Positions 24,901 to 62,868 of a DNA stretch of 64,000 bases are shown here, in pieces. The position numbers were made by a program, and so were the translations under genes. Below the pieces are notes generated by a model, which saw only the letters and a list, made by a program, of their open reading frames with translations, was not told the origin of the DNA and made no database searches. This DNA comes from Dehalococcoidia bacterium (GTDB lineage Bacteria; Chloroflexota; Dehalococcoidia; DSTF01; JACRBR01). Every line of letters begins with the position of its first letter. Position 1 is the stretch's first letter. The DNA is taken from the NCBI GenBank assembly GCA_021462855.1, contig JAJTXQ010000020.1, positions 124,001 through 188,000 of the forward strand, in the 5' to 3' direction.

Positions 24901-26070
24901 GTGGATTTCCGTTTCAGCGAAGAGGAAGAGGCGTTCCGCGGCGAGGTGCGCCAGTTCATCGCCGAGAACATGACGGACGAGATCCGCTCGCACTGGCTCG
25001 GCGGCCTGCTCGATACGCCCGCGCGCCGCGACTTCGTCACCAAGATGGCCGACCGCGGCTGGCTCTCCATGGGCTTTCCGGCCGAGTACGGCGGCACGCG
25101 GCAGACGGTGCCGCTTGCCCAGTACATCATGAACCAGGAGCTGCACCGCGCCGAGGCGCCGATCGTCGGCAAGAACCTTGGCGTCATCGTCAACACCATC
25201 CTCCGGCACGGCAATGAGCCGATGAAGCGCGAGTTCATCCCGCGCATCTTCCGCAACGAGATCCAGTGGGCGATCGCCTACAGCGAGCCCGAGGCCGGCT
25301 CCGACCTCGCCAACATGCGCGCGAGCGCCGTGCTCGACGGCGACGAATACGTGATCAACGGCAGCAAGCGATTCATCACGTCGGCGCACTTCGGCGACTA
25401 TATGTGGACCGGCGTGCGCACCGACCCGAACGCGCAGCCCAAGCACAAGGGCATCAGCCTGATCATCATCGACGCGACACTGCCCGGCATCACCGTCACG
25501 CCGACGTGGACGATCATCGGCGAGCGCACGAACGACGTGTTCTTTGACGACGTGCGCGTGCCGAAGGAGTACCTGGTCGGCGAGGTCAACAAGGGCTGGT
25601 ACTACATCTCCGAGGCGCTGACGTACGAACGCTTCGCGATGACGTCGATCATCCCGACCGTGCGCAAGCTGGATCGCCTCGTCGAGTACGTTCGCACGAC
25701 GGAGGTAGACGGCGAGCCGCTCGCCAACGACCCCGTTGTGCGCCGCATGGTCGCCCGTATGGCCACGCTTGTCGAAATGGGCAAGATGCTCGACCTGCGC
25801 TGCCTGTGCATGGCGATCAAGCCCGACTACGTGCCGAACAACGAGGCGGCGATGAACAAGATGTGGGGCGGCATCATCGAGACCATCCTCTCCGACGAAA
25901 CGCTGGACGTGCTCGGCCCCGACGGCTTCCTCTGGAAGGACGAAGACGCGCCGATGGACGGCGAGGTCGTCGACGACTACCTCTGGGCCGGGCACCAGCG
26001 CGTCGCCGCCGCCGGCGTCGACATCTCCAAGAACATCCTGGCAAAGCGCCTGCTCGGGCTGCCTTCCTGA
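24901..26070 (+). CDS. acyl-CoA dehydrogenase, subunit of a probable heteromeric pair
   Basis: A 389-residue acyl-CoA dehydrogenase beginning with GTG (no in-frame ATG is positioned for a full domain). It has RGWLSMGFPAEYGGTRQT, the flavin motif IAYSEPEAGSDLAN, and INGSKRFITSAHFGDYM. The C-terminus departs from the usual 'GTSEIQ' (QRVAAAGVDISKNILAKRLL). The next gene encodes a different acyl-CoA dehydrogenase 22 nt downstream. In mycobacterial sterol catabolism such adjacent FadE pairs form alpha2beta2 enzymes, so this may be one subunit. It is the first gene of the long plus-strand operon; a possible -10 TAGAAT lies at 24808-24813. Confidence 0.9.
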   Translation: MDFRFSEEEEAFRGEVRQFIAENMTDEIRSHWLGGLLDTPARRDFVTKMADRGWLSMGFPAEYGGTRQTVPLAQYIMNQELHRAEAPIVGKNLGVIVNTILRHGNEPMKREFIPRIFRNEIQWAIAYSEPEAGSDLANMRASAVLDGDEYVINGSKRFITSAHFGDYMWTGVRTDPNAQPKHKGISLIIIDATLPGITVTPTWTIIGERTNDVFFDDVRVPKEYLVGEVNKGWYYISEALTYERFAMTSIIPTVRKLDRLVEYVRTTEVDGEPLANDPVVRRMVARMATLVEMGKMLDLRCLCMAIKPDYVPNNEAAMNKMWGGIIETILSDETLDVLGPDGFLWKDEDAPMDGEVVDDYLWAGHQRVAAAGVDISKNILAKRLLGLPS

Positions 26071-26092: not shown

Positions 26093-27226
26093 ATGGACAT
26101 CGAGCTAACCGAAGAACAGCGCCAACTCATGGACGCGGCGCGCCGCTTCGTCGAGCGTGAGTGTCCGCTGTCGTACGCGCGCGCGATCGAGGGTGAGGCC
26201 GCCGGCTACTCCCGCGACCTGTGGGAGCGCATGGCCGCGCTCGGCTGGCCGGGGCTCCTCGCGCCCGAGGAGCACGGTGGCGCCGGCCTCGGCATGATCG
26301 ATGTCGCTGTGCTGTGCAAGGAGCTTGGCCGCAATCTCACGCCGAGCCCGCTGATCCCGTCTGCCGTCATCGCCGCGAGCGCCATCGCTGCTGCGGGCAG
26401 CGACGCGCAGAAAGCCGCGTTGCTGCCGCGCATCGCATCGGGTGACCTTGTCGTCGCGCTGGCGATGCAGGAGGGCAAGCGATACGACGGCGCGGGCGTG
26501 CGGATGACCGCGCGCGCGGAGGGCGACTCGTTCGTGTTGAACGGCCAGAAGCCGTACGTCGAACATGCTGCCGGCGCCGACCGGCTGCTGGTGCTGGCGC
26601 GCTCGTCGGGCGCCGCCGGTTCGAATGACGGCGTGACGATGTTCCTCGTCGACGCGCGAGCTCCGGGCGTTTCGGTCCGCCCGCGCGGCACGATGGCGCG
26701 CGACCACCAGGCCGCCGTCACCTTCGCCGATGTGTCCGTCAATGCGGCCGACGTCCTAGGTCCGGCGGGCGGCGCGTGGCCGCTGCTCGAGCCGGCGCTC
26801 TATCGCGGCGTCGTCGCGTTCTGCGCATACATGGTCGGCGCCGCCGAGAAGATCCACGCGATGGCGACCGACTTCGCCAAGCAGCGCGTGCAGTTCGACA
26901 AGCCGATCGGCAGCTTCCAGGCCATCCAGCACTACCTCGCCCAGAGCATCACCGAGATCACCGCCGCCGATACGATGACGTTCTACACCGCCTGGGCGCT
27001 CGACCAGCGCGAGCCAGCGCGCGCGATGGTCGCCAAGACGAAGATCTGCGCCGGCGATACGCTGAAGCAGGCGTCCGCTATCGGCGCGCAGATCTACGGC
27101 GGCATGGGGTTCAACGAGGATGTCGACACCACGCTCTTCCTGCGTCGCGGGAAGCAGTGGCAGATGTCGATGGGCGACAGCGGCTACTGGGGCGACGTCC
27201 TCGCCACCGAGCTGCTCGGCGCCTAG
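26093..27226 (+). CDS. acyl-CoA dehydrogenase, second subunit of the pair
   Basis: A 377-residue acyl-CoA dehydrogenase of the shorter-N-terminus type (MDIELTEEQRQLMDAARRF). It has ERMAALGWPGLLAPEEHGG, a modified flavin-site region (VALAMQEGKRYDG, without the usual SEP..GSD), and the C-terminal IGAQIYGGMGFNEDVDTTL region followed by LRRGKQW. The canonical flavin-stacking motif is missing, which is common in one of the two subunits of heteromeric FadE enzymes. It lies between the other dehydrogenase gene (22 nt) and the hydratase gene (12 nt). Confidence 0.9.
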   Translation: MDIELTEEQRQLMDAARRFVERECPLSYARAIEGEAAGYSRDLWERMAALGWPGLLAPEEHGGAGLGMIDVAVLCKELGRNLTPSPLIPSAVIAASAIAAAGSDAQKAALLPRIASGDLVVALAMQEGKRYDGAGVRMTARAEGDSFVLNGQKPYVEHAAGADRLLVLARSSGAAGSNDGVTMFLVDARAPGVSVRPRGTMARDHQAAVTFADVSVNAADVLGPAGGAWPLLEPALYRGVVAFCAYMVGAAEKIHAMATDFAKQRVQFDKPIGSFQAIQHYLAQSITEITAADTMTFYTAWALDQREPARAMVAKTKICAGDTLKQASAIGAQIYGGMGFNEDVDTTLFLRRGKQWQMSMGDSGYWGDVLATELLGA

Positions 27227-27238
27227 GAGCACGCGCCC

Positions 27239-28321
27239 ATGCCCGACGAGAGCGCGCTGCAGTTCCTCCGCGACGACGTGCCGGATGACGTCCGGCGCAC
27301 GATCCTCGCGCTCACCGACGAGACGGAGCCCGAACCGGCGCCGCTCGAAGTGAACGAGTACCTCATCCGCCACTGGTGCGAGGCGCTGGAGGACGGCAAC
27401 CCGCTCTACCTCGATGCGGCGTACGCGCGCGCGAACGCGCACCCGGGTGTCGTCGCGCCGCCGGCGTCGCTGCTGACGACGTTCCTCCTGCCGCTGCGCT
27501 GGCCGTGGCCGCCCGATGGCCGCGAGCCCCGCCGGTTCATCCATTACGACCTGAAGGAACTGCTCGACCTGCCCGTCGGCATCGTCACGGACATCGATGT
27601 CACGTACCACGCGGCCGTGCACGCCGGCGACCGGCTGAACACCACGCAGCGGCTCGTGTCCATCTCGCCGTGGAAACGCACGCGTGTCGGCGAGGGGCAC
27701 TTCTGGACCATCGACCGCACGTACCGCAACCAGCGCGCCGAAGTCGTCGCGCGCGAGCGGATGACCATCTTCTCCTACGGAGGCGGCAGCGCGCAGCAGG
27801 AGGCGGCAGGCGCCGGCGGCTGGAGCGCGGCCGTCGAGGAGATGATCGGCGGCGATGGCCGCTACCTGCCGCCAGAGCCAGCTTCCGTGTACTGGGATGA
27901 CGTGCGGGTCGGCGACGCGTTGCCGCCGCTGTCGATGCCGATCACGTTCACCCGCGCCGTGTACCTCGCATCGGCGACGCGCGACTTCTCGCCGCAGCAC
28001 TCGAACCGCGACTACGCGCAACAGCGCTCGAACACGCGCGACGTGTTCGTCAACACGCCGTTCAACATGGGCATGGTCAGCCGGCTCCTCACCGACTGGG
28101 CGGGCCCACGCAGCACCGTGCGCCGCCTGAAGCTGGCGATGCGCGGCAACGTCTGCGCGGGCGACGTGATGACGCTCACCGGCGCCATCACGGCCAAGTA
28201 CGTCGAGGACGGAGAACCGCGCGTCGATGCCGACATCATGATCGCGACGGCCGACGGCCCTGCCACGCCGTGCTCGGCCACGCTCGCTCTGCCGGCGCGC
28301 GCCGGCGCCGTGCCCGCATGA
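27239..28321 (+). CDS. double-hotdog MaoC/FAS1-like hydratase
   Basis: A 360-residue protein with two hotdog domains. The N-terminal half (about 20-190) is of the FAS1-like dehydratase type (VNEYLIRHWCEALEDGNPLY, HPGVVAPPASLLTT) and lacks the catalytic Asp/His pair. The C-terminal half (about 215-355) holds it in ATRDFSPQHSNRDYAQ. One active and one inactive hotdog in a single chain is typical of hydratases for bulky CoA esters, such as the ChsH1-ChsH2 type in sterol side-chain degradation. The stop overlaps the next start (ATGA), so it is co-translated with the fused CoA-transferase. Confidence 0.87.
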   Translation: MPDESALQFLRDDVPDDVRRTILALTDETEPEPAPLEVNEYLIRHWCEALEDGNPLYLDAAYARANAHPGVVAPPASLLTTFLLPLRWPWPPDGREPRRFIHYDLKELLDLPVGIVTDIDVTYHAAVHAGDRLNTTQRLVSISPWKRTRVGEGHFWTIDRTYRNQRAEVVARERMTIFSYGGGSAQQEAAGAGGWSAAVEEMIGGDGRYLPPEPASVYWDDVRVGDALPPLSMPITFTRAVYLASATRDFSPQHSNRDYAQQRSNTRDVFVNTPFNMGMVSRLLTDWAGPRSTVRRLKLAMRGNVCAGDVMTLTGAITAKYVEDGEPRVDADIMIATADGPATPCSATLALPARAGAVPA

Positions 28322-30834
28322 GCGGCGCCTGCGACGGCCTCCGCGTCATCGACTTCAGCACATGGATGGCGGGCCCGCTCGCCACGATGGTGCTCGCCGA
28401 CAACGGCGCCGACGTCATCAAGGTGGAATCGCCCGCGGGCGACCCGGCGCGCGCGCTCCCCGCGTTCCAGACGTGGAACCGCGGCAAGCGCGCCGCGACG
28501 ATTGACCTCAAGACGCCGCACGGCCGCGCGTCTGCGCTCGACCTCGCACGCACGGCCGATGTGGTCGTCACGAGCTTCCGGCCCGGCGTGGCCGAGCGCC
28601 TCGGCATCGGCTACGACGATATCCGCGTGGTCAATCCGCGGGCCGTCTACGCCGCGATCAGCGGCTACGGCGAGGCCGGCGCGCGCCGCGACCTTGCCGG
28701 GTATGACGCGCTCGTTACCGCGCGCTCCGGCCGCATGATGATGTTCGAGGGCGTCGCGGAGCGCGCCGGCCCGGCGTATCCCGCGCTCCCCTGCGCCTCG
28801 TACTCGGCAGCCATGCTCACGGCGCAGGGCGTCCTCGCGGCGCTGCACCGCCGCCGCGTGACGGGCGCCGGCGACCGCGTCGCCGTCTCGCTGCTCGCCG
28901 CGCTCATGCCGTTCGACTTGATCATGTGGATCGGCTGGCAGCTCCGTGGCCAGGACCTCGAGACCGAGGGCGTCTCCGCGCCCATGCTGCTCCAGAAGCT
29001 GATGGGCGAGCGGAAGATGATCGAGAAGGCGCCGCCGAAGGAAGGCGCGTACGACCCGACACAGCTCCATCGCCCGAAGGTGCGCGTTCCGCGGCCAAAC
29101 TACCTGACCGCCGTCACGAAGGACGGCGTCTGGATCCAGTTCGCCAACACCATGGACCATCTCTGCGTCGCGCAGATGACCGCGCTCGACCTGCTCGACC
29201 TCTACGGAGAGGAGCGCTTCGCCAAGCTGCCGGCGATCTTCACCGAGGACGACGCAGACGACCTCTGGGGCATTGTGCTCGAACGAGTGCGGACGAAGAC
29301 GTGGGAGGAGTGGTCCACGATCTTCGCGCGGCACGAGGATCTCGCGGTCGAGCGCGTCCGCGGGCCGCTCGACTCGCTGCGCCACCGTCAGATCGCGCAC
29401 AACGGCCAGGCCGTCGCGGTCCCAGGCTTCGACGGCAAGCCCACGCTGCAGCCTGGACCGATCGCGCTCCTTTCGGCGAACGCGCCAACGATCGGTCGCC
29501 CGGCGCCGTGCCCCGGCGAGCACACCGACGCCGTGCTCGCGGAACAACGCCAGGTGCCAGACAGCGGACCTCCAGCCGTAGCCGATGCGGGCGCGCCGCT
29601 CGCCGGCATCACCATCCTCGACTTCTCGGCCTGGATCGCCGCGCCGCTGTCGACGACCATGCTCGCGAACCTCGGCGCGCGCGTGATCAAGATCGAGCAG
29701 GTTGGTGGCGACATGAGCCGCTACTCGACAGGCGGCCTCCTCGCGTTCCCGATGACGCAAGGCAAGGAGAGCATCGCCCTCAACCTCAAGTCGCCGGAAG
29801 GGCTGGCGATCGCGCGCAAGCTCATCGAACGCTCCGACATACTCGTGCACAACTACCGGGCGGGCGTTGCCGCGCGCATCGGCATCGACTACGCGACATG
29901 CCGCGCGCTGAACCCGCGCATCATCTACCTCGACGCCGCGTCCTACGGCGCCGACGGCCCCGACTGCCGCAAGCCGGCGTTCTTCGCCGTCGCGGCCGCG
30001 CTCGGCGGCAACCAGGCGCGGCAGGTTGGCGCCGGACACCCGCGCCCCGGCGTCGAACACGGCACGCTCGATGAACTCAAGACCGAGGCCTGGCGCCTGC
30101 TGAAGGCCGCCGAGGGCAACGCCGACCCCATCGCCGCCCTTGGCGCCGCCACGGCGCTGCTGCTCGCGCTCCACGCGCGCGACGCGTCGGGCGAGGGCCA
30201 GTCGCTGGTCACGACGATGATCGGCTCGACGCTCTACGCCAACTCGGACGAGACGATCGACTACGATGGCCGCCCGCCGTCGCCGCAGGTCGACGAGCAA
30301 CTACTGGGCCTCGGCCCGGCGTACCGGCTCTACGAGACGCGCGACGGATGGCTGTTCGTTTGCTGCATGAGACGCGCCGAGTGGGACGCGTTGTGCGACG
30401 GGATCGGCCGCGCCGACCTCGCGCCGCGCTGGGTCGACGTGTGCCGGGCGCCCGCGTCCGACGCGGTGGCGTCGGAGCTGGAATCTGTGTTCCGCACGCG
30501 CTCCGCCACGGAATGGGAACGCGACCTCGCGCCGCGCGGCGCGCCGGTCGCCGCCGTCGAGACCCGCGACCCCGGCCGCTTCAACATGGAAGACCCGGAT
30601 ATGAGGGCGCAGGGTCACGCGGTGCAGGCGCACTCGCCGGTGCACGGCGCGTACTGGCGGCACGGCGCCCTCTACCGATTCGGGAGCGGCGCGCCGCAGG
30701 CGTTCGGCGCGTGGGAGCCGCTCGGCGGTCACTCGCGCGCCATCCTCGCGCAGCTCGGCTACGCGCCCGATGCCATCGATGCGCTGGTGGACGCGGGCAT
30801 CGTCGAGGCATGGGCGCCGGAGGCGAACGAATGA
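28318..30834 (+). CDS. fused double class III CoA-transferase (Asp-less N-domain, Asp-containing C-domain)
   Basis: An 838-residue protein made of two complete CaiB/BaiF units, about 5-400 and 428-835. The first starts GLRVIDFSTWMAGPLATMVL, the second GITILDFSAWIAAPLSTTML. In the N-terminal unit the active-site loop is ALPCASYSAAM, with Ser161 where the nucleophilic Asp should be. In the C-terminal unit the loop is EGNADPIAALG with Asp603 in place. The chain is thus a natural fusion of the Asp-less/Asp-containing pairs found elsewhere in the window. The gene overlaps both neighbours by ATGA and sits in the middle of the igr-like operon, so it probably makes the CoA ester that the operon degrades. 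Confidence 0.92.
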   Translation: MSGACDGLRVIDFSTWMAGPLATMVLADNGADVIKVESPAGDPARALPAFQTWNRGKRAATIDLKTPHGRASALDLARTADVVVTSFRPGVAERLGIGYDDIRVVNPRAVYAAISGYGEAGARRDLAGYDALVTARSGRMMMFEGVAERAGPAYPALPCASYSAAMLTAQGVLAALHRRRVTGAGDRVAVSLLAALMPFDLIMWIGWQLRGQDLETEGVSAPMLLQKLMGERKMIEKAPPKEGAYDPTQLHRPKVRVPRPNYLTAVTKDGVWIQFANTMDHLCVAQMTALDLLDLYGEERFAKLPAIFTEDDADDLWGIVLERVRTKTWEEWSTIFARHEDLAVERVRGPLDSLRHRQIAHNGQAVAVPGFDGKPTLQPGPIALLSANAPTIGRPAPCPGEHTDAVLAEQRQVPDSGPPAVADAGAPLAGITILDFSAWIAAPLSTTMLANLGARVIKIEQVGGDMSRYSTGGLLAFPMTQGKESIALNLKSPEGLAIARKLIERSDILVHNYRAGVAARIGIDYATCRALNPRIIYLDAASYGADGPDCRKPAFFAVAAALGGNQARQVGAGHPRPGVEHGTLDELKTEAWRLLKAAEGNADPIAALGAATALLLALHARDASGEGQSLVTTMIGSTLYANSDETIDYDGRPPSPQVDEQLLGLGPAYRLYETRDGWLFVCCMRRAEWDALCDGIGRADLAPRWVDVCRAPASDAVASELESVFRTRSATEWERDLAPRGAPVAAVETRDPGRFNMEDPDMRAQGHAVQAHSPVHGAYWRHGALYRFGSGAPQAFGAWEPLGGHSRAILAQLGYAPDAIDALVDAGIVEAWAPEANE

Positions 30835-32000
30835 CCGACGCATCGATGGTGCGCGACCGCACGGCCATTGCCGGCATCGGCACGACGGAGTACGTGCGAA
30901 ACATCGGCCGCAGCGAACTCGAGACGGCGCTCGACGCGATCGGCCTCGCGCTCGATGACGCCGGGCTGACGGCGCGCGAGGTCGACGGCATCTTTAAGAT
31001 CGACACGCCGGGCGAGGAGTCGAACAGCGAGCTCGAGATCGCGCGGAACCTGGGTGTCGCGAATCTGCGCGCCTGGGGCGGCGCAGGGTACGGCGGCGGC
31101 GCGGCATGCGCGCCGGTCGTCCTCGCCACGATGGCGGTGGCGACGGGCATGGCCTCGGTGGCCGTGGCTGTCCGCGCTCGGAATCGCGGCTCCGGCGGCC
31201 GCCCGTGGGCGCGCACCGGCGCGCGCGTACCCGGGCTCGCGGCGTTCGAGATCCCGTACGGACTCGTGTCGCCCGTGCAGCAGCTTGCCATCCTCGCGCG
31301 GCGCTACATGCACGAATTCGGCGCCACGTCCGAGGATTTCGCGCGCGTGTCGGTCGTGCAGCGGGCGCACGCGGGCCGTAATCCGCGCGCCTGTTTCCGC
31401 GACCCGATCACGGTTGACGACGTGCTGAACTCGCGGATGATCGCCGACCCGCTTCACCTGCTCGATTGCTCGCTCGAGACGGACGGCGCGTGCGCGGTCA
31501 TCGTGACGAGCGCGGAGCGCGCGCGCGACCTGCGCCGGCCGCCGGTATACATCAGCGGCATCGCCCAGGGCATGGGGCCGCGCCACTACATGATGAACGG
31601 CCTCGGCTATCGCGAAGATCCGTTCGACATGCCGCCGCTGTACGCGGCGCGCGACGTCTACGCCGCAGCCGGCATGGGGCCGCAGGACATCGATGTCGCG
31701 CTGCTCTACGACGTGTTCAGCCCGATGGTGCTCTGGCAGCTCGAGGCATACGGCTTCTGCAGGCGCGGCGAGGCGGCAGGTTTCGTGCGCGACGGACGGA
31801 TCGCCTGGCCCGGCGGTGACCTGCCGGTCAACACGCACGGCGGCAGCATCTCCGAAGCGTACGTGCATGGCTTCAACCACGTGCTCGAGGGCGTGCGGCA
31901 GTTGCGCGGCGAATCGACGTGCCAGGTCGAAGGCGCGGACGTCGCGCTCGTCGCCGCCGCCGCCGTCGTGCCGACGAGCGCGCTCATCCTTCGGAGGTGA
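30831..32000 (+). CDS. thiolase-superfamily protein lacking the catalytic Cys (Ltp2-like aldolase candidate)
   Basis: A 389-residue thiolase-fold protein of the lipid-transfer-protein/SCP2-thiolase branch. The nucleophile Cys of thiolases is replaced by Tyr87 in WGGAGYGGGAAC, and the C-terminal GHP motif is replaced by NTHGGSISEAYVHGFNH. It therefore should not act by classic thiolysis. Ltp2-type proteins with such changes work as retro-aldolases that remove a side chain from a 3-hydroxyacyl-CoA, together with a DUF35 partner. The next gene, 4 nt downstream, encodes exactly such a DUF35 protein. The start overlaps the fused CoA-transferase stop by ATGA. Confidence 0.86.
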   Translation: MTDASMVRDRTAIAGIGTTEYVRNIGRSELETALDAIGLALDDAGLTAREVDGIFKIDTPGEESNSELEIARNLGVANLRAWGGAGYGGGAACAPVVLATMAVATGMASVAVAVRARNRGSGGRPWARTGARVPGLAAFEIPYGLVSPVQQLAILARRYMHEFGATSEDFARVSVVQRAHAGRNPRACFRDPITVDDVLNSRMIADPLHLLDCSLETDGACAVIVTSAERARDLRRPPVYISGIAQGMGPRHYMMNGLGYREDPFDMPPLYAARDVYAAAGMGPQDIDVALLYDVFSPMVLWQLEAYGFCRRGEAAGFVRDGRIAWPGGDLPVNTHGGSISEAYVHGFNHVLEGVRQLRGESTCQVEGADVALVAAAAVVPTSALILRR

Positions 32001-32004
32001 CACG

Positions 32005-32424
32005 ATGACGCAACAGGCGATGACGTCGCAGCGCCCCATGCCCGAGATCACGCCGATGACCGAACCTTTCTGGTCCGCCGCACGCCGGCGCGAGCTCGTG
32101 GTGCAGCGTTGCGACGGCTGCGGCACGCTCCGCTTCCCGCCGGAGGTCGCGTGTTACGCCTGCGGCTCACGCAGGGCGGCGTGGACGCCCGTCAGCGGCC
32201 GCGCGACGCTCTACAGCTGGACGGCGGCGCCCCCGCCGCTGTTGCCGTACTTCGCCGACCGCGCGCCGTGGCCCGTCGCGCTCGTGCAGTTGGCGGAGGG
32301 CCCCCGGATGTTCACGAACCTCGCCGGCATCGCGGTCGAGGAGTACGCGATCGGCATGGAGCTGCAGGCCGGCTTCGAAGACATAGACGGCGAGACCACA
32401 CTCGTCGTCTTCAGGCGCGCATGA
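32005..32424 (+). CDS. Zn-ribbon/OB-fold (DUF35) partner protein
   Basis: A 139-residue DUF35 protein. A rubredoxin-like Zn ribbon is formed by CDGCG and CYACG (about 36-58), followed by an OB-fold (about 63-135, SGRATLYSWTAAPPPLLPYF). In this family the protein binds a thiolase-like partner and helps bind acyl-CoA. GGAGG lies 8 nt before the ATG. Its position right after the Cys-less thiolase homologue supports a two-protein enzyme, as in Ltp2-ChsH2 or archaeal thiolase-DUF35 complexes. Confidence 0.9.
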   Translation: MTQQAMTSQRPMPEITPMTEPFWSAARRRELVVQRCDGCGTLRFPPEVACYACGSRRAAWTPVSGRATLYSWTAAPPPLLPYFADRAPWPVALVQLAEGPRMFTNLAGIAVEEYAIGMELQAGFEDIDGETTLVVFRRA

Positions 32425-32453: not shown

Positions 32454-33629
32454 ATGGACTTCGCGCCAACCCCGGCGATGGACGACATCCGCGAGGAGAT
32501 CCGCGCGCTGCTCGCGTCGGTGCTGCCCGGCGATTGGCAGGGCAGCGGCTTCCTGCCGATGGACGTCCGCCCCGAGCACTTCGACCTCGCACGCAAGCTC
32601 GACCATGCGCTCGCGGCGCGGCGGCTGCTCGCGCCATCCTGGCCGGTGCAATACGGCGGGCGCGGCTTCACGCCGTACGAGCAATTCGCGCTGTTCGAGG
32701 AGCTCGGCTACCACCTCGCGCCGCGCATGACGACGATTTCCGTCGACCTCGTCGGACCGGTGCTGATCCACTACGGCAGCGACGAACAGCGCTCGCGCTG
32801 GCTGTCCGCGATCGCCAACGACGCGCAGATCTGGTGCCAGGGCTTCAGCGAACCGGGCGCAGGCTCCGACCTCACGTCGCTCACCACCCGCGCCGAGCGG
32901 CAGGGCGACGAGTACGTCGTCAACGGCCAGAAGATCTGGACGAGCATGGCGCATCGCTCCGAATGGATGATCCTCCTCGCCCGCACCTCGCAGGAGCTCC
33001 CGCGCGGACGCGGACTGAGCCTGTTCCTGCTCCCGACCGATTCCCCGGGCATCGAGATCCGCGCGATCCACGATGCCGGCGGCGAGCACATGCTGAACGA
33101 AGTGTTCCTCAACGACGTGCGCATCCCCGCGTCGCAGTTGATCGGAGAGGAGAACCAGGGGTGGCGCTACGCCACCACGCTCCTCCAGTACGAGCGCGGC
33201 GATGTGCTGCTCATCGGCCAGTACCGGCGGCTGCTGGACGATATCGAGCGCGGGCTGGCGGGCGCCACGCGCACGGAGCTGGCGCGCTCGAACGCGCGGG
33301 CGCTGCTGGCTGAGTGCGAGATCGAGTGGAACGTCGGCCGCCTGCTGACGCTGCGCGTCGTCGACATGCACACGCGCGGTCTGCTGCCCGACACCGAGGC
33401 ATCGGTCACCAAGCTGTTCATGACGGAGGCGTACCAGCGCCTCGCGGCGGTGGCGAGCAGGATCGGCGGGCTGCGCTCGATCCTCCGCCACGACGACACG
33501 CTCGCGGCGCTGGGCGGCCGCATCGAACAAGCGGTGGTGTCATCGACGATCGGCACGGTCATGGGCGGCACCTCGGAAGTGCAACGGACGATCATCGCGA
33601 CGCGCGGGTTCGGGCTGCCGCGCGGCTGA
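32454..33629 (+). CDS. acyl-CoA dehydrogenase (FadE-like)
   Basis: A 391-residue acyl-CoA dehydrogenase with ARRLLAPSWPVQYGGRGFT, flavin motif WCQGFSEPGAGSDLTS, VNGQKIWTSMAHRSEWM and C-terminal SSTIGTVMGGTSEVQRTIIA. The residues before GTSE are MG rather than YE, so the base is not in the canonical place. It is the third acyl-CoA dehydrogenase of the plus-strand operon and stands alone rather than in a pair; it may act on a different intermediate from the 24901/26093 pair. Confidence 0.93.
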   Translation: MDFAPTPAMDDIREEIRALLASVLPGDWQGSGFLPMDVRPEHFDLARKLDHALAARRLLAPSWPVQYGGRGFTPYEQFALFEELGYHLAPRMTTISVDLVGPVLIHYGSDEQRSRWLSAIANDAQIWCQGFSEPGAGSDLTSLTTRAERQGDEYVVNGQKIWTSMAHRSEWMILLARTSQELPRGRGLSLFLLPTDSPGIEIRAIHDAGGEHMLNEVFLNDVRIPASQLIGEENQGWRYATTLLQYERGDVLLIGQYRRLLDDIERGLAGATRTELARSNARALLAECEIEWNVGRLLTLRVVDMHTRGLLPDTEASVTKLFMTEAYQRLAAVASRIGGLRSILRHDDTLAALGGRIEQAVVSSTIGTVMGGTSEVQRTIIATRGFGLPRG

Positions 33630-40946: not shown

Positions 40947-41118
40947 CATCGCCTCCTGCCGCGTCGCTCCGCCGCGCGGCGTTTGATTGTCCCCGCAGGC
41001 GCGCGACCGCAAAGTCGGGCAAAACCGTACAGATCGCCTGACGGGCGCCCGATAGACGCCCACCCGCGCGCCCGGCACGATCGCGGCGCAGCGACGAATC
41101 GCAGTTCCCGAGGTGCTC

Positions 41119-42333
41119 GTGGCCGCAGGCGCGCTCGACGGTATCCGCGTCATCGACATGGGCGAGCTGATCGCCGCGCCGTTCTGCGCCCGCCTCTTCG
41201 CCGACTACGGCGCCGACGTCGTCAAGGTCGAGCCGCGCGGCCGCGGTGACCGCTCGCGCACATGGGGCCCGTTCCCCGGCGACGCCCGCGACGCTGAACG
41301 TAGCGGCCTGTTTTTCTATCTCAACACCAACAAGCGCGGCGTCACGCTCGATGCCACGACGCCCGATGGGCGCGACCTGCTGCTCGCGCTCCTCCGCGAC
41401 GCCGACGCGTTCATCCACGGCATGCGCCCGCGCGAGCTTCGCGCGCTCGGTCTCGACTTCGACGCGCTGGCGGCCATCAACCCGCGACTCGTCATGATCT
41501 CGATCACGCCGTTCGGCCAGACCGGGCCGTACAGCGACTGGAACGCCTACGACATCAACGCCTTCCACCTCACGGCCTCCGGCATGCGCTACCTCGGTCG
41601 GCCGGGCGAGGCGCCGCTCGAGCCCGGCACGTTCATCGCCGACTTCTACGGCGCGTACGCCGGAGCCGCGTGGGGGCTCGCCGCGATTATCGGCCGCGAC
41701 GCGATCGGCGGCGGCCAGCACGTCGACGTGTCGACCGCCGAGGTGATCGCCGCGCTGTTCACGGGCGCGCAGAACATCGGCGGGTACGCACAGGACGGCG
41801 TGTACGAGACGCGCAGCGGCGTCGGCATGCGCCTCGGCGCGCCGGCGACGATCTTTCCGTGCAAGGACGGCTACGTGTGGATGCTGGCGCTCGAACCCGG
41901 GCAGTGGAAAGGCCTCGCGCGCGCGATGGGCGACCCCGACTGGATGCAGCTTGAACAGTTCCTCGACATGTACAACCGCGCCCAGAACGTCGATGCGATG
42001 AACCCGCTGATCGCCGAATGGACGGTCCAGCACACCAAGCAGGAGATCATGGACCTGTGCCAGTCCAACGGCTGCCCGACGACCGCGATCTACACCGTCG
42101 ACGAGGTGGCGAATCACCCGCACCTCGCAGAGCGCGGGTTCATGCGGGACATCGCGCATGCGTCGCTCGGCGACGTGCGCACCACCGGCGCGCCCGTGCG
42201 GCTGCCGGGAAGCCCCGGCGGTCCGGCGCGGCCGGCGCCGCTCCTCGGTGAGCACAACGCCGAAGTCTTCGGCGCGCTGCCCGGCCGCGACGGCGACGCC
42301 GTCCGGCGTCTGCAGCAAGCGGAGGTGATCTGA
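41119..42333 (+). CDS. class III (CaiB/BaiF) CoA-transferase
   Basis: A 404-residue enzyme, first of three consecutive paralogues. It begins GIRVIDMGELIAAPFCARLF with GADVVKVEPR; the catalytic Asp175 is in GTFIADFYGAYAG, and the GGGQHVDVSTAEV motif follows. I chose the GTG at 41119 because GAGG lies 5 nt upstream; a GTG at 41113 is also in frame. The next CoA-transferase gene starts 1 nt after its stop. All three in this run keep the Asp, unlike the paired sets. Confidence 0.92.
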   Translation: MAAGALDGIRVIDMGELIAAPFCARLFADYGADVVKVEPRGRGDRSRTWGPFPGDARDAERSGLFFYLNTNKRGVTLDATTPDGRDLLLALLRDADAFIHGMRPRELRALGLDFDALAAINPRLVMISITPFGQTGPYSDWNAYDINAFHLTASGMRYLGRPGEAPLEPGTFIADFYGAYAGAAWGLAAIIGRDAIGGGQHVDVSTAEVIAALFTGAQNIGGYAQDGVYETRSGVGMRLGAPATIFPCKDGYVWMLALEPGQWKGLARAMGDPDWMQLEQFLDMYNRAQNVDAMNPLIAEWTVQHTKQEIMDLCQSNGCPTTAIYTVDEVANHPHLAERGFMRDIAHASLGDVRTTGAPVRLPGSPGGPARPAPLLGEHNAEVFGALPGRDGDAVRRLQQAEVI

Positions 42334-42334
42334 C

Positions 42335-43555
42335 ATGGCACGCGCGCTCCCGCTCGCAGGCGTCCGCGTGTGCAACTTCGGCTCGGGCTGGCTCGGGCCT
42401 GTGTTCGGCCAGACACTCGCCTTCCTCGGCGCCGAGGTCTACAAGGTCGAGTCAAGCGCGCGCGTCGACATCAACCGGCGCCTGCCGCCGTTCGGCGGCG
42501 GCGTGCCCGGCCCCGACCGCAGCCTCTCCAACCACGCCTGCTGGGCGGGCAACGGCAGCGTCACGCTGAACCTCAAGCACCCCGCGGCGCGCGACCTCGC
42601 GCTTCGCCTGGTCGCCGTGTCCGACATCGCCGGCGAGAACTTCGGGCCGGGCGTGATGGACTCGCTCGACCTGGGTTACGACGCGCTGCGCGGCGCGCGC
42701 CGGGACATCATCATGATCTCGATGCCGGCGGCGGGGCTCACCGGACCGCTAAAGGGCGTGCGCACGTACGGCATGAGCCTGAGCAGCATCACCGGTCTCG
42801 ACAGCATGACAGGCTACGCTGGAGGCGGGCCGGTGCCGTTCGAGAACGCGTTCGCCGACCCGCTCGGCGGTGTCATCGGCGCGTTCGGCACGCTCGTCGC
42901 GCTTCACCACCGCAACCGCACCGGCGAAGGCCAGCACATCGACTACTCGCAGCAGGAAGGCGTGATGCAGATGGTTGGGCCGGCGTTCATGGACTATTTC
43001 ATGAACGGCCGCGTCGCCGCGCCGATGGGCAATCGCCACCCGGTGAGCGCGGGCGCGCCCCACGGCGTCTTCCGCTGCGCTGGCGACGACCGCTGGATCA
43101 GCATCGCCGTGCTCACCGACGACGAGTGGCGCGCGCTCGCCGAAGCGATCGGCGCGCCCGCATGGACGCGAGCCGCGGAGTTTGCAACCGCCCCCGACCG
43201 CCTCGCCAATATCGATGCGTTGCACGAGCGCATCGCCGCGTGGACGTCCGGCCAAGACGCAGCCGCGCTCGCTGGCCAACTGCAGGAGCGCGGCATCGCA
43301 GCCGCGCCTGTGCTGAACATCCCCGACCTGCTCAGCGACCCGCACTACCGCGAGCGCGGCACGTTCATCTCTGTGCATCACCCGCTCGGCTTCGACGAGA
43401 CGATCTACGGCGGATACGTGAAGATGAGCCGCACGGAGCCCAACATCCGCACCGGACCGCTCATCGGCCAGGACAACGACCACGTCTTCCGCGATCTGCT
43501 CGGCATCGACGGCGCGGAGTACGAGCGCCTCGTCGCCGAGCAGGTGATCTTCTAG
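42335..43555 (+). CDS. class III (CaiB/BaiF) CoA-transferase
   Basis: A 406-residue paralogue in the three-gene run. The N-terminus VRVCNFGSGWLGPVFGQTLA and GAEVYKVESS are followed by catalytic Asp175 in ENAFADPLGGVIGAFG and GEGQHIDYSQQE. Spacing to the previous gene is one base and to the next nine bases, so the run is one operon. The acceptor acid cannot be inferred from sequence. Confidence 0.92.
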   Translation: MARALPLAGVRVCNFGSGWLGPVFGQTLAFLGAEVYKVESSARVDINRRLPPFGGGVPGPDRSLSNHACWAGNGSVTLNLKHPAARDLALRLVAVSDIAGENFGPGVMDSLDLGYDALRGARRDIIMISMPAAGLTGPLKGVRTYGMSLSSITGLDSMTGYAGGGPVPFENAFADPLGGVIGAFGTLVALHHRNRTGEGQHIDYSQQEGVMQMVGPAFMDYFMNGRVAAPMGNRHPVSAGAPHGVFRCAGDDRWISIAVLTDDEWRALAEAIGAPAWTRAAEFATAPDRLANIDALHERIAAWTSGQDAAALAGQLQERGIAAAPVLNIPDLLSDPHYRERGTFISVHHPLGFDETIYGGYVKMSRTEPNIRTGPLIGQDNDHVFRDLLGIDGAEYERLVAEQVIF

Positions 43556-43564
43556 CATGCGCTG

Positions 43565-44743
43565 ATGGCGTTACTGAGCGGCCTCCGGCTCATCGATATG
43601 GCGTGGTTCGGGCCAGGCCCGTTCTGCGCGCGCATCCTCGGCGACCTCGGGTTCGATGTCATCAAGGTGACGGCCGTCGGCGAGCAGCCTCGCCGGGCGC
43701 CGATGCTCTTCCACCAGGAGCCGCAAAGCCGCATCGACGCCGGCTACCGCCACGCGAACGCGCGCAGCATGCAACTCGACCTGAAGTCCGACGCCGGGCG
43801 CGACGTGTTCGCGCGCCTGCTCGCCACCGCCGATGCACTGCAGGAAGGATTTCGGCCCGGCGCCGCCGACCGCATCGGCGTCGGCTACGAGCGCGCGCGC
43901 GAGCTCAAGCCGGACATCGTCTACGCGTCGCTCACCGGGTACGGGCAGACGGGGCCGTACCGCGACCGCGCCGGGCACGACCTCAACTACCTCGCCGTCG
44001 CCGGCATCATCGAGATGAACGGGCGCGCCGGCGGACCGCCCACCGTCCCGGCGGCGGTGCTCGGTGACTACGCCGCCGGCGGCATGTCCGCGGCTGTGCA
44101 CATCCTGGGCGCGTTGCTGCGGCGCGCGCAGACCGGCGCCGGCGCCTACTGCGACGTATCGATGACCGACGCGGCGTTCGCGCTCAACGCGCTCGTCGTC
44201 GACGAGCACCTGGCGACGTCGATCGAGCCGCGACGCGGCGAGACGCTCACATCGGGCTACTGGCCGTGGTACGACGTGTACGAGACCGCGGACGGCGGCT
44301 GGGTCTCCGTGGCGGCGATCGAGCCGCAGTTCTACCGTGCGCTCTGCACCGCGCTGGGCCGCGACGATCTCCACGACCGGCAGTGGGACACGGCGGGCCG
44401 CGAGCGCACGCGCGCGGAGTTCGCCGCCGCCTTCCGCTCGCGCACACGCGACGCTTGGGTCGACGCGTTCGACGGCGTCGACGCGTGCTTCGCGCCCGTG
44501 AACAGCACGGCCGGCGCCGTGGGCGACCCGCAGCTGCGCGCCCGCGGCATGATCGTCGACGTGCAGCACCCGGCGCATGGCGCCGTGCGCGCGCTCGGCT
44601 CGATGCTCCGGTTCGACGGCGAGTCGCCCCGGCCCGAGCGCTGGATCAGCGCACCCGGCGAGCATACGGAGGACGTGCTGCGCGAACTCGGTTACGATCC
44701 GGGCGAGATCGCGGACATGCGCGCGGCCGGCGTGATCAACTGA
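43565..44743 (+). CDS. alpha-methylacyl-CoA racemase-like enzyme
   Basis: A 392-residue CaiB/BaiF-fold protein that differs from the true transferases nearby. It has the racemase His in the segment YGQTGPYRDRAGHDLNYLAV (His138) as well as Asp168 in AAVLGDYAAGG. These match the His126/Asp156 pair of mycobacterial and human alpha-methylacyl-CoA racemases, which invert the methyl-bearing C2 centre of branched acyl-CoAs such as pristanoyl- or sterol side-chain CoA. It follows two CoA-transferases, and its stop overlaps the start of the MocA-like gene. This supports a branched or isoprenoid-type substrate for the region. Confidence 0.85.
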   Translation: MALLSGLRLIDMAWFGPGPFCARILGDLGFDVIKVTAVGEQPRRAPMLFHQEPQSRIDAGYRHANARSMQLDLKSDAGRDVFARLLATADALQEGFRPGAADRIGVGYERARELKPDIVYASLTGYGQTGPYRDRAGHDLNYLAVAGIIEMNGRAGGPPTVPAAVLGDYAAGGMSAAVHILGALLRRAQTGAGAYCDVSMTDAAFALNALVVDEHLATSIEPRRGETLTSGYWPWYDVYETADGGWVSVAAIEPQFYRALCTALGRDDLHDRQWDTAGRERTRAEFAAAFRSRTRDAWVDAFDGVDACFAPVNSTAGAVGDPQLRARGMIVDVQHPAHGAVRALGSMLRFDGESPRPERWISAPGEHTEDVLRELGYDPGEIADMRAAGVIN

Positions 44744-51286: not shown

Positions 51287-51832
51287 CTACGCCTGCCACC
51301 CTCGTACGGTGTCCAGCGTCTTGTCCGCGAACTCGACCTTGCGATCGAGCGGCTGGCCGAGCCATTCGCTGTAGAACGTGTCGAGATCCGGCAGGAACTC
51401 GAAGTCCGGCGGACAGCCGCGCGGCACCGCCTCGACTTCGAGCTGGTTGCCGCAGCCGGGGCAGTAGTACTCCCGCACCTGCACCCACTCCGCCTCGGGC
51501 ATCTCTGACCCGCGATAGATCTTTCCGAGCTCCTTTTCGCTGTCGCGCACGTGGATGAGCGCCGACAGTTTCCAGTTGACGCGGTAGTCGCCGAACTCCT
51601 GCCCGCACGTGCACTTCACGACGCGCTCACCGCCCGCCCGCTCGACCACGTACAGGTGCGGCGTCAGCGGCAGCAGGATGCGCTCCTCCCACGGCACGCG
51701 GCTCTGGAGGATCTGCACCCACTTCTGGAATCGGGAGCCATCCTTCGGCGACTTCATGATCTCCTGGACGCGTGTCCACGGCAGATCGCCGTCGATCAGG
51801 CGTTCCAGTTCGTTGACGTTGTACTCGGGCAT
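51287..51832 (-). CDS. acetone carboxylase-type gamma subunit
   Basis: A 181-residue protein matching the small zinc-containing subunit of acetone carboxylase (about 170 residues in the family). A Zn site is suggested by CTCGQEFGDYRVNWK and YYCPGCGNQLEVEAVP. The N-terminus YNVNELERLIDGDLPWTRVQ and HLYVVERAGGERVVKCTCG are also family-like. It is encoded 22 nt downstream of the alpha subunit gene, giving the order beta, alpha, gamma. In the complex it is needed for the carboxylation of a ketone enol-phosphate. Confidence 0.87.
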   Translation of the reverse strand: MPEYNVNELERLIDGDLPWTRVQEIMKSPKDGSRFQKWVQILQSRVPWEERILLPLTPHLYVVERAGGERVVKCTCGQEFGDYRVNWKLSALIHVRDSEKELGKIYRGSEMPEAEWVQVREYYCPGCGNQLEVEAVPRGCPPDFEFLPDLDTFYSEWLGQPLDRKVEFADKTLDTVRGWQA

Positions 51833-51853
51833 CGCTTGTTCCTCGTTTCGCCG

Positions 51854-54091
51854 CTAGAACGTGAAGTCGTCGGGCAGCTGCCAGAACGCTCGGATCTCCT
51901 CGCCATACTTCGGCGAGAGGCGCATCGAGCTCCGCCACATCTCGAGCACGGCGGGGTCCATGTCCTCGCGCGCCTCGACCTTCTTGCGCTCCTTGCTCCA
52001 CCACTCGCGGAACGGCACGCCGCGTGACTTGCGCGCCTCGCGCTCCTTCGCGCGCTCGCGCTCCGTCGCCGCCGCGTCGATGTCCCACGCCTGCGCCTTC
52101 TCGTCGTACTTCGCGACGACGCGGTTGATGTTGCGTGCCACCCAGTCGCGTGTCCAGCCGGCGTCCAGGTCGGAGCGCACGAGCTCCGGGTCGCGCTCGA
52201 TCGGGTCGCCGAGCGCCTGCGCGCCCGACACGTGGTGCACGACGAGGTCGTACTCGTGCAGCGCCTCGGGCGTGACGAACGGCGTGATCAGGTCGGTCTC
52301 CCGCACCCTCGCCTCGATGTACTTGTCCATGTTCGGGTTGTCGGGGTCGCCGCGCTCGTGGAGCAGCGGCTTCTGCTCGTCGATCAGTTGCTTCACGTTG
52401 GTGCCGGCGGCGTAGCTGCCGCGTTCCGGCCACTTGGGGTAGGCGCCGTACATCCCGTGGTTGCCCACGAGCTTGCTGCGGATGCCCGCGCAGCCGCACT
52501 GGTACTCCACGCCCGGTGAGTTTTTGATCATCCAGATCGCCGTGTGGCCGAGGCCGCCGCGGAACTTGCCGTAGCCGCCCGAGTCCGGCTCGAGCCCGCG
52601 CCCGAGGTACATCAGCGGGAAGTACAGCTCCGTCACCTCGGCGTTGCCCTGGTCGGCCTGCGGCGTGTAGATGCACCAGGCGCTGTTCTCGCCATCGGCG
52701 ATGGCGCGCGCCGGGCCGCCGTTCGACGCCTGCTCCAGCGTCAGGCCGGCCACGAACATCCCGAACTGGCTGATGCCCGAGAACTCCGCCGTCATCGTGC
52801 AAGCCGCGCCCGCCGCCACCTCTTCCAGGTAACCGCGCGAGAAGTACGACCGCGTGATCGTCTCGTACACCGAGCTCAGCCACATCACTGCCGGCGCCCA
52901 CGCCACGCCGCTCGCGACGTGATAGTCAACGGGGTGCGGGTTCGCCCACGACCCCGGCGGCGGCAACTCGAGGTCGTACGTCGCCACCGTTCCCGAGCTG
53001 AACATGTCGAATCCGACGATGTGCGAGAAGGCGTTGAGCAAGATCGACGCGAGCGCCGTCGGGTTGATGTTCTCGCCGAACGGCACCGTGCCACTCACGC
53101 CGGCGAGGCTCAGCGCCATCCGCGCATCGCGCCCGACCGTCACCTCGAGCGGCAGGTTGAACAGCACGTCGACGTCCTGGTGCGGCAGGATGACGCGCTT
53201 CCCCTTCATCGCCAGGTCCTTGAAGTTGGACTTGCGCAGGCGGCCCGGGATGGTCTGCGTCTTGATCCGCCGCTGCGCGTACCGCCGGCTGTCCTCGACG
53301 TACTCTTTTGTTACCTGCTTGTAGTAGTCGAGACCGTACTTGTCCACGAGCTGGATGATCCGTTCGCGAATCGTGAACGATCCGGCGAGCCGCGCCCGCG
53401 CGTCCGCCATCACCCAGTCGGGCATGCGCGTGCGCGACGTCACGCGCTTTTCATACCAGGGGAACAGCCGGTCGTTCTGCCCGACCTTCTCCATCGTCAC
53501 CGGCATCCCGTCCGAGAAGCAGTCAGGGTTCAGGAAGCCGATCGACCCGGGCAGGATGCAACCGATGTCCTGCACGTGCGTCACTGAGCCAATCCAGCCG
53601 ATCAGCTCGTCCTTGTAGAAGATCGGGACGGCGGTGTCGAAGTCCATCGGGTGGATGCCGCCGTAGTGCGGGTCGTTGTTCTCGAAGATGTCGCCCGGGT
53701 TGAACCCCGGGTCGTTCTCGTATCCCTGCTCGATGAGCGTGCGGATGAACGCCGCGAGCATGCCCGTGTGGCCCGTGATCCCGCGCGACGTGCAGATGCA
53801 TTCGCCCGTCGGCAGGTGCAGCGTCCACATCGCGTCGCCGCCTTCGACGGCGATCGGCGACGCCGCCACCTGGCAGCCGACCGCCCAGCCCGTGTTGCAG
53901 ATGTTGAGCAGGATGTGCCAGACCGCCTCGTAGGTGCCCGGGTCCGTCTCCTTGCGTTCGAGTTTGTCGAGCCCGAAGAGATGCCCGGTCTGCTGGAACA
54001 GCCGGTCGTTCTCCGCGACGCGGGTCTGCAGGTTGCCCGCTCCGGCGGAGGCGCCGTTCGTGCCGGTTCCCGGCGTCAGTACGCTTGTCAT
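51854..54091 (-). CDS. acetone carboxylase-type alpha subunit (hydantoinase B/oxoprolinase family)
   Basis: A 745-residue HyuB-family protein, near the length of acetone carboxylase alpha subunits. Family segments are NICNTGWAVGCQVAASPIAV, FENNDPHYGGIHPMDFDTAV, VTHVQDIGCILPGSIGF, and GGYGKFRGGLGHTAIWMIKN. In acetone carboxylase this subunit binds Mn and performs the carboxylation using the phosphorylated ketone and carboxyphosphate. It starts 2 nt after the beta subunit gene, with which it must assemble. Simple hydantoinases or oxoprolinases lack the gamma protein encoded next, which favours a ketone carboxylase. Confidence 0.9.
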   Translation of the reverse strand: MTSVLTPGTGTNGASAGAGNLQTRVAENDRLFQQTGHLFGLDKLERKETDPGTYEAVWHILLNICNTGWAVGCQVAASPIAVEGGDAMWTLHLPTGECICTSRGITGHTGMLAAFIRTLIEQGYENDPGFNPGDIFENNDPHYGGIHPMDFDTAVPIFYKDELIGWIGSVTHVQDIGCILPGSIGFLNPDCFSDGMPVTMEKVGQNDRLFPWYEKRVTSRTRMPDWVMADARARLAGSFTIRERIIQLVDKYGLDYYKQVTKEYVEDSRRYAQRRIKTQTIPGRLRKSNFKDLAMKGKRVILPHQDVDVLFNLPLEVTVGRDARMALSLAGVSGTVPFGENINPTALASILLNAFSHIVGFDMFSSGTVATYDLELPPPGSWANPHPVDYHVASGVAWAPAVMWLSSVYETITRSYFSRGYLEEVAAGAACTMTAEFSGISQFGMFVAGLTLEQASNGGPARAIADGENSAWCIYTPQADQGNAEVTELYFPLMYLGRGLEPDSGGYGKFRGGLGHTAIWMIKNSPGVEYQCGCAGIRSKLVGNHGMYGAYPKWPERGSYAAGTNVKQLIDEQKPLLHERGDPDNPNMDKYIEARVRETDLITPFVTPEALHEYDLVVHHVSGAQALGDPIERDPELVRSDLDAGWTRDWVARNINRVVAKYDEKAQAWDIDAAATERERAKEREARKSRGVPFREWWSKERKKVEAREDMDPAVLEMWRSSMRLSPKYGEEIRAFWQLPDDFTF

Positions 54092-54093
54092 GG

Positions 54094-56238
54094 TTACTTC
54101 GACCTCCGATCGAGCCAGATCGTCTCCGTCTCATCGAACCGTGCCCGCCAGTTCTCCGGCACGAACAGCGTCGTGCTCGGCGCCTCGATCACCGCGAGGC
54201 CGTTGACCTCGTTCCCCGGACGCAATTCGCTCATCTCAAACAACTGGGCGTCGACCCAGCGGCCGTGCTGGTACAGGGGCCGCGTGCCCTTCGACGCGCT
54301 CTTGCGCGGGTCCTTGCCTTCGAGGTCGGACTTCCGGATCTGCGGCTTGAGCGTGCTGACCTGCGCGATCACCGCGACCTCCGTGATGAGGAAACTCGGG
54401 TACGGTGGCTTCGCGATCAGCGTGTACATCTGCTCGAAGTCCGCTTCGAACTTCGCCATCAACTTGTCGACGTCCGCCACGGACGTCAGCTGCGGCGTCG
54501 GCGATTCGACTTCGATGTCGTACAGCTGGCCGTAGTACCGTACGTACGCGGCCGGGCGCAGCGTGATCTGCTCACGGTTGAACCCTTCCTTCAGCAGCTC
54601 TTCGGTCAGTTCGGCGCTCAGCTCCTGCCACGCGCTGCTGATCATGCCGGCGGCCTGCATCTTCGCCGCGTCGTCGGCGCCGTACGCAACCATCGCCGAG
54701 ATGCTGCGGTGGCGCCGGTGCGCGTAGTCCATGCACGCGCCGCCCCACGCCGAGAACGCCGCGGCGTACGGCACGGTTGCGACGCCCTTCCACGGGTCGT
54801 CGGCCGCGTAGCCGCAGAGGTGCATCGGCCCCGCGCCGCCGTAGCCCAGCAGCACGTAGTCGCGGATGTCGAAGCCGAGCATCAGGCTGCGCACCAGGTG
54901 CTCGCGCATCACCACGTTGATCAGGTTCATGCACTGCTCGGCCGCCGTGTACACGTCGAGGCCGAGCGGCCGCGCGATCTGCTCCTCGAAGTTCGCTATC
55001 GACTTGTCCTTGTTCACCTTCACGCGGCCACCGAGGTAGTAGTCCGGGTTGATGATGCCGAGGATCAGGTCGCAGTCGCCGATCGTGGGGATCTCGTTGC
55101 CGCTCTCCTGGAACACCGGTCCGGGCGTGCCGCCGGCGCTGTCGGGCCCCAGCTTCAGCCGCTGCGTGTCCGGGTCGAGCCGGATGTACGTGCCGGTGCC
55201 CGCGCCGATCGACTGGATGTCGAGCATCGGCACGTTCACCCACATCTGCATGAATGGTGGCTCGCGGTTGATCGGCAGGATGCCCGCCGAGATGGCGCCC
55301 GCGTCGAAGCTCGTGCCGCCCATGTCCGAGCAGACGATGTTCTTCTCGCCGATCAGGTTTCCCAGGTACGACGCGCCCATGATGCCGCCGACCGGGCCCG
55401 ACATCATCGTCTCGAACAACCGCGGGTAGCGGATGTTCGTGACGCCGCCATAGCAGAGCACCGTCTTCAGCGACTTGTCGTAGCCCGTCGCGGCGAGCTT
55501 CTCCTCGACGCCGTGGAGCTGCTTGCGCGCCGGCTCGGCGGCGTACGCCTGGATCACCGTCGCATTCGCGCGCGACACCTCGCGCTGCACCGGTGCGACA
55601 TCGACCGAAAGCAGCAGCGGCACCTCGCGCCCCATCTCCTTCATCACTTCGCGCGCGATCTCGCCGGCGCGGCGCTCGTGCATCGGGTTCGCGAACGAGT
55701 ACAGGAAGACGATGACGATCGACTCGACGCCGTTCTCCAGCAGCTCGCGGACGGCGTTGCGCACCTCGTGCTCGTAAAGCGGGATCACCACCTGCCCGAA
55801 CAGGTCGATGCGTTCGGTCACGCCGCGGCAGTCGCGCCGCTGGACGAGCGGCTGGCGGTGCTTGCGGTACTGCATGTGCACGATCTCAGACCAGTCGCAG
55901 CCGATGAACGTCTGCGACCCGCGCCCCTGGATCACCATGTCCTCGAACCCGCGGTTGGTGATGAACCCCGTGCGCACCCCCGACATGTTGATGAGCGCGT
56001 TCAGCATCGACGTGCCGGTGTAGATCGCCGTCTCCGTTTGCTGGCAGACTTCGCGCCCGTTCGCGTCCAGCGTCTTGTCCCAGTACGTCAGCGCCTCGCT
56101 GAACGACTCCATGTACCCGACGCTCTCGTCATGCGGCGTCGTCGGCGCCTTGCCGATGACGAACTTCCCTTCATCATCGACGATGATCACGTCGGTCATC
56201 GTGCCGCCCGCGTCGCAGGCGAGTAGGTAACGGCTCAT
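54094..56238 (-). CDS. acetone carboxylase-type beta subunit (hydantoinase A/oxoprolinase family)
   Basis: A 714-residue HyuA-family protein, matching acetone carboxylase beta (about 717). The ASKHA-type ATP-binding start is LLACDAGGTMTDVIIVDDEG. CSDMGGTSFDAGAISAGILP carries the phosphate motif and LLGYGGAGPMHLCGYAADDP the adenosine region. In acetone carboxylase it phosphorylates the ketone and bicarbonate with ATP. I chose the ATG at 56236-56238 because it follows AAGGAAGAG and starts the ATPase domain. A 217-bp gap without genes separates it from the upstream SnoaL gene, so the carboxylase genes may have their own promoter. Confidence 0.9.
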   Translation of the reverse strand: MSRYLLACDAGGTMTDVIIVDDEGKFVIGKAPTTPHDESVGYMESFSEALTYWDKTLDANGREVCQQTETAIYTGTSMLNALINMSGVRTGFITNRGFEDMVIQGRGSQTFIGCDWSEIVHMQYRKHRQPLVQRRDCRGVTERIDLFGQVVIPLYEHEVRNAVRELLENGVESIVIVFLYSFANPMHERRAGEIAREVMKEMGREVPLLLSVDVAPVQREVSRANATVIQAYAAEPARKQLHGVEEKLAATGYDKSLKTVLCYGGVTNIRYPRLFETMMSGPVGGIMGASYLGNLIGEKNIVCSDMGGTSFDAGAISAGILPINREPPFMQMWVNVPMLDIQSIGAGTGTYIRLDPDTQRLKLGPDSAGGTPGPVFQESGNEIPTIGDCDLILGIINPDYYLGGRVKVNKDKSIANFEEQIARPLGLDVYTAAEQCMNLINVVMREHLVRSLMLGFDIRDYVLLGYGGAGPMHLCGYAADDPWKGVATVPYAAAFSAWGGACMDYAHRRHRSISAMVAYGADDAAKMQAAGMISSAWQELSAELTEELLKEGFNREQITLRPAAYVRYYGQLYDIEVESPTPQLTSVADVDKLMAKFEADFEQMYTLIAKPPYPSFLITEVAVIAQVSTLKPQIRKSDLEGKDPRKSASKGTRPLYQHGRWVDAQLFEMSELRPGNEVNGLAVIEAPSTTLFVPENWRARFDETETIWLDRRSK

Positions 56239-62866: not shown

Positions 62867-62868
62867 AC

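Follow-up and report, generated by a model that had tools for sequence, protein, structure and literature searches.

The window analyzed here, a 64,000-nucleotide stretch of DNA from a Dehalococcoidia bacterium, encodes class III CoA-transferase units both as separate gene pairs and, at positions 28318 to 30834 (+), as two units fused in a single polypeptide. This raises the question of whether the fusion is informative about the separate pairs, as the original prediction held, or represents a system with its own descent and role. The gene is an uninterrupted frame of 838 aa, joined to both its upstream and downstream neighbors by 4-nt overlaps (ATGA). Its only Pfam family is CoA_transf_3 (PF02515; E = 3.4e-148, 494 bits against a cut-off of 23.3), which matches in three stretches, the best covering residues 428 to 795 (model positions 1 to 354 of 366), and which also matches the N-terminal half (N-half). 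VIA-align fitted whole class III chains to residues 1 to 411 and 423 to 835 (Z of 23 to 27), finding the class III fold in each unit. Both analyses bear out the earlier description of two complete class III units, an N-terminal one in which the catalytic Asp is replaced (residues 1 to 411; 28318 to 29550, +) and a C-terminal one predicted to be catalytic (C-half; residues about 424 to 832; 29587 to 30813, +). Fused orthologues with 60 to 63% identity occur in other genomes, so the fusion is neither a chance open reading frame nor an assembly artifact; its best named matches are metagenome-assembled genomes of Dehalococcoidia. In G052, a genome assigned to the same class, the ORF recovered (L032) coincides in coordinates and scores with that of the Dehalococcoidia isolate Baikal-deep-G102 (L038). 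The two halves are only 26% identical to each other, versus 62 to 63% for each half and its own orthologue, and a single-chain AF2 model built from a 10-sequence alignment has a mean pLDDT of 83 and a pTM of 0.89 over both halves. Searches of 99 relatives with the C-half recovered no split form of this subfamily, all 32 matches with E < 1e-60 lying within open frames of at least 706 aa. NCBIfam returned only subthreshold matches to formyl-CoA and succinyl-mesaconate transferases, and hence no equivalog name can be attached to the protein. The window contains a second, unrelated ORF of 838 aa (60441 to 62957, -), which matches BPD_transp_2, a permease family of the branched-chain amino acid type.

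To place the catalytic residues, we aligned class III units, both fused and single, drawn from the window and its genome as well as from relatives, plasmids, and named genomes. The alignments agree with the earlier assignment of Ser161 (codon 28798 to 28800, +) to the catalytic Asp column of the family in the N-half and of Asp603 (codon 30124 to 30126, +) to that column in the C-half, the latter being invariant across all fused homologues compared. The Asp is present in the C-half of every related fusion (40/40) and in 73 of 75 single-gene class III enzymes, but is missing from 38 of 40 N-halves; its loss is not absolute, since in two other fusions the N-half does have an Asp at this column or close to it. 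The residue at the Ser161 column itself varies (S, T, G, A, V, and others), the constant feature being that it is not Asp. Within the DddD-type lineage (see below), neighboring motifs are also eroded on the N-terminal side: the Asn of ENF/Y is kept in 6 of 21 N-halves versus 18 of 21 C-halves, and the GP of GxGxxGP in 11 of 21 versus 21 of 21. Together, the losses of the Asp and of these motifs are the pattern of a partner half that would be inactive. The C-half shares its fold and catalytic Asp with the homodimeric class III CoA-transferases (FRC, YfdE, SUGCT, and CaiB); however, those enzymes have two identical active subunits, whereas the fusion appears to combine one active and one inactive half.

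This architecture is already known from DddD, a DMSP CoA-transferase/lyase that carries out both steps and needs a catalytic Asp for activity (PMC4437653). We compared the DddD sequences of the Sinorhizobium fredii NGR234 plasmid locus and of Pseudomonas sp. MPC6, traced via a Sinorhizobium plasmid locus (L118) and PMC3338564, which names NGR234 as a dddD-bearing strain. Both align end to end with the fusion and, like it, carry two class III domains on a single chain of roughly 838 aa, with Ser in the N-half site (S168/169) and Asp in the C-half site (D599/603); moreover, their halves fall in the same N-half and C-half clades as those of the fusion. The DddD-type proteins of the fusion's Dehalococcoidia subclade differ in having about 15 extra residues just before the catalytic Asp, which DddD lacks. 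In the fusion this longer stretch corresponds to residues about 570 to 601 (window positions about 30025 to 30120) and is helical in the model.

The gene neighborhood supplies a functional context. The fusion is the fourth gene of a seven-gene order in which it is preceded by two acyl-CoA dehydrogenases (24901 to 26070, +, closest to the solved structures 4x28 and 6wy9; and 26093 to 27226, +) and a MaoC-type hydratase (27239 to 28321, +), and followed by a thiolase-fold aldolase (30831 to 32000, +), its partner, a DUF35/ChsH2 OB-fold and zinc ribbon protein (32005 to 32424, +), and a third acyl-CoA dehydrogenase (32454 to 33629, +). The arrangement is conserved in three further genomes, two from the same taxonomic order, G013 and G014 (where the first gene is cut by the contig end), and one from the same class, G076, with protein identities of 51 to 79%. 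The hydratase combines ChsH1- and ChsH2-like halves in one chain (best PDB matches 4w78/4wnb, E = 1e-14), and the thiolase-fold protein is closest to Ltp2 (6ok1, 352 bits, E = 3.9e-104, versus 201 bits for the next structure). It retains Tyr294 and Tyr344 of TcLtp2, whose roles are described in PMC12329534, within the motifs YDVF and AYVHG; as it has Val in place of His296, the retro-aldol step is a prediction. These components recall the igr-type side-chain removal module (PMC12502768), in which ChsE1-ChsE2, ChsH1-ChsH2, and Ltp2-DUF35 remove the side chains of cholesterol and bile acids. Common to both are the acyl-CoA dehydrogenases, a ChsH1/ChsH2-related MaoC hydratase, an Ltp2-like aldolase with both catalytic Tyr residues, and DUF35. 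The present operon differs in having the MaoC halves in one chain, DUF35 as a separate gene, a third dehydrogenase, and the fused CoA-transferase; and whereas the igr substrates are steroids, a steroid is a candidate substrate here. Judged by its gene content, the operon is a predicted igr-type side-chain removal module with a CoA-transferase built in.

In our assessment, the 838-aa protein is probably a fused class III CoA-transferase of the DddD type whose two halves fold together into an intramolecular pseudo-heterodimer, with Asp603 as the sole catalytic Asp, an inactive N-half, and an operon-linked acid as the acceptor. By homology, Asp603 would accept the acyl group from a donor acyl-CoA, forming a mixed anhydride, an enzyme-CoA thioester would then form at the same residue, and the CoA would be handed to the acceptor acid, while the N-half would serve as an inactive structural partner completing the interface active site. 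The acceptor would be the acid that the operon degrades, one whose branched or alicyclic side chain is broken down through the igr-type reaction series. Aldolase cleavage would release a short acyl-CoA that could act as the donor, allowing CoA to be recycled without ATP. Because the fusion shares a conserved seven-gene operon with a ChsH1/ChsH2-like hydratase, an Ltp2-like retro-aldolase, and DUF35, it most likely activates a branched or alicyclic acid by CoA loading so that the side chain can undergo beta-oxidation. Dehalococcoidia have many CaiB/BaiF paralogues, and the link to an aldolase-type operon gives one of them a concrete, testable role. More tentatively, and with the balance of our judgment against it, the operon may represent a conserved Dehalococcoidia pathway in which the fused CoA-transferase replaces an ATP-dependent acyl-CoA ligase: it would draw CoA from the short acyl-CoA that the retro-aldolase produces and attach it to the next acid, which would be alicyclic or steroid-like. 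Dehalococcoidia, the class in which SAR202 is placed, have been proposed to oxidize recalcitrant organic matter, and such a pathway, if real, would provide ATP-free side-chain removal from that material.

Since DddD combines transferase and lyase activities, the reaction of the fusion could exceed CoA transfer. It might act like DddD on another substrate, loading CoA and then eliminating a leaving group. The fusion shares its clade with DddD, which performs both steps, and the SAR202 genomes have expanded CaiB/BaiF families, some members of which have DddD as their top Swiss-Prot match; the authors of that study raised the idea that such proteins have novel lyase functions (PMC5395668). However, the dehydrogenase, hydratase, and aldolase steps of the operon explain a pathway without any elimination, and we regard a lyase activity of this kind as unlikely. 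Still less probable is that both halves are active, the N-half acting through another residue, for instance as a racemase or isomerase of an alpha-methyl acyl-CoA. The fold of the N-half does resemble alpha-methylacyl-CoA racemases about as well as it resembles transferases, but the half lacks the family-column Asp, its neighboring active-site motifs are lost, and the analysis revealed no other conserved residue in it that might serve in catalysis.

The original prediction took the fusion to be strong gene-fusion evidence that the separate pairs of the window interact, which amounts to regarding it as a fused version of those pairs, with an N-half orthologous to the Asp-less subunits and a C-half orthologous to the Asp-containing ones. 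We investigated this with a tree of 99 class III units (LG+C20) and with approximately unbiased (AU) tests on a 52-unit subset under LG and mixture models. The tree contains three separate heteromeric lineages that pair Asp-less with Asp-containing units. Lineage I comprises the DddD-type fusions, including the 838-aa protein and DddD, with an N-half clade (N1, support 99) and a C-half clade (C1, support 71) that adjoin each other, a nearness that is weakly supported (12 to 13 in the 52-unit mixture tree). Lineage II is BbsEF-type, with an Asp-less clade (A2, support 98) and an Asp-containing clade (D2, support 99) that include chains A and B of PDB 9fn0, the window pairs 18366/17096, 20668/21795, and 41113/42335, and several fusions. 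Lineage III consists of the pair 50047/48801 together with L052. Within lineage I, the distances among N-halves and among C-halves are congruent (Mantel r = 0.86), as expected if a single fusion was followed by joint inheritance of the two halves. In lineage II, fused and split forms swap at least three to five times, and over the whole tree the Asp state changes at least four times.

The predicted correspondence holds at the level of the active-site pattern: the fusion shows the same Asp-less/Asp-containing division as the pairs 18366/17096, 20668/21795, and 50047/48801, and in the same order, the Asp-less unit first. It does not extend to descent, the fusion and the pairs belonging to separate lineages. 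The AU tests reject a grouping of the N-half with the BbsE-type Asp-less subunits (N1+A2; P = 0.0013 under LG and 0.00013 under the mixture model), of the C-half with the BbsF-type Asp-containing subunits (C1+D2; P = 0.012 and 0.0014), and of all Asp-less units in a single clade (P = 0.00025, LG). Further, the fusion halves are no nearer to A2 and D2 (mean identity of 23 to 26%) than to single-gene enzymes (28 to 29%). The phylogeny that had been proposed as a check on the prediction thus goes against it, and it is very improbable that the fusion is a joined version of the neighboring pairs. The original prediction would also have been undone by halves that were recent duplicates of each other with no relation to the paired subunits; at 26% identity they are not recent, but ancient, duplicates, and the lack of any special relation to the pairs does hold. 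Because the AU tests reject both groupings, these sequence comparisons indicate that the fusion is not a Rosetta stone for the BbsEF-type pairs. CoA-transferases built of a "dead" and a "live" half have had at least three independent origins (the DddD-type fusions, the BbsEF type, and the 50047/48801 type), and therefore the existence of a fusion in one lineage is no direct evidence on the pairs of another. Three further two-unit class III fusions are encoded in the same genome: L033 (G000:C76) lies in the DddD-type lineage beside the DddD branch, while L034 (G000:C42) and L036 (G000:C13), the latter about 13 kb past the end of the window, lie in the BbsEF-type lineage.

That the fusion is DddD itself, converting DMSP to DMS and 3-hydroxypropionate, is scarcely credible despite the common domain layout, length, Ser and Asp positions, and clade, for it is 27 to 29% identical to the DddDs, which share 58 to 86% with one another, DddD groups with L033, L009, and L041 outside its subclade, and its neighbors are beta-oxidation and aldolase genes, with no transporter or DMSP genes among them and none of the genes that accompany dddD in its own loci (BCCT or ABC transporter, GMC or iron alcohol dehydrogenase, LysR). 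The Pseudomonas plasmid dddD, for example, is surrounded by genes for a BCCT transporter, an alcohol dehydrogenase, a semialdehyde dehydrogenase, and a LysR regulator. Similarly, dddD-like genes on Sinorhizobium and Ensifer plasmids (L118 and L119) have GMC oxidoreductase and LysR regulator genes beside them, and downstream of the one in L118 lies an ABC transporter. The S. mexicanum plasmid locus (L009) was ruled out as a DddD by its leuCD-, ETF-, and lyase-like neighbors. Plasmid-borne dddD-like genes occur across many Rhizobium and Agrobacterium strains, where their annotation, if there is any, goes no further than CoA transferase or carnitine dehydratase.

The DddD-type transferase that we favor for the 838-aa protein leaves the partnership in the separate pairs to be argued from BbsEF, whose lineage, and not that of the fusion, holds two of the three pairs named in the original prediction. 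The structures 9fn0 and 9fol show BbsEF as a heteromer of an Asp-less and an Asp-containing subunit, and among solved structures, 9fn0 chain A is the top match to a profile of the Asp-less subunits of lineage II, with a margin of 64 bits. Chain A has Tyr at the catalytic Asp position, whereas chain B has Asp (residue 178 by count on the alignment), in line with the D178-CoA adduct given in the title of 9fol. Like the fusion, BbsEF joins Asp-less and Asp-containing class III partners with one active Asp per pair and belongs to a beta-oxidation operon that also encodes a thiolase-fold/DUF35 pair; unlike it, BbsEF has separate subunits, and its Asp-less partner is, according to the AU tests, of separate origin. 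On account of this structural precedent and of the true lineage II fusions, two of which are encoded in this genome, rather than of the 838-aa protein, the BbsEF-type pairs of the window probably do form heteromers, and for these pairs the predicted interaction is probably right. For 50047/48801, a heteromer may be proposed by analogy only.

The window also encodes a BbsEF-type pair absent from the original prediction, at 41113 to 42333 and 42335 to 43555 (+), followed by a third class III gene at 43565 to 44743 (+). Although it groups within the Asp-less clade, the upstream member of this pair carries Asp at the catalytic column (FIADFYGA). Directly upstream of 50047/48801 lie genes for an acetone carboxylase gamma-like protein and for hydantoinase B- and A-like proteins (51287 to 56307, -), which suggests that an ATP-dependent carboxylase or hydrolase is linked to that pair.
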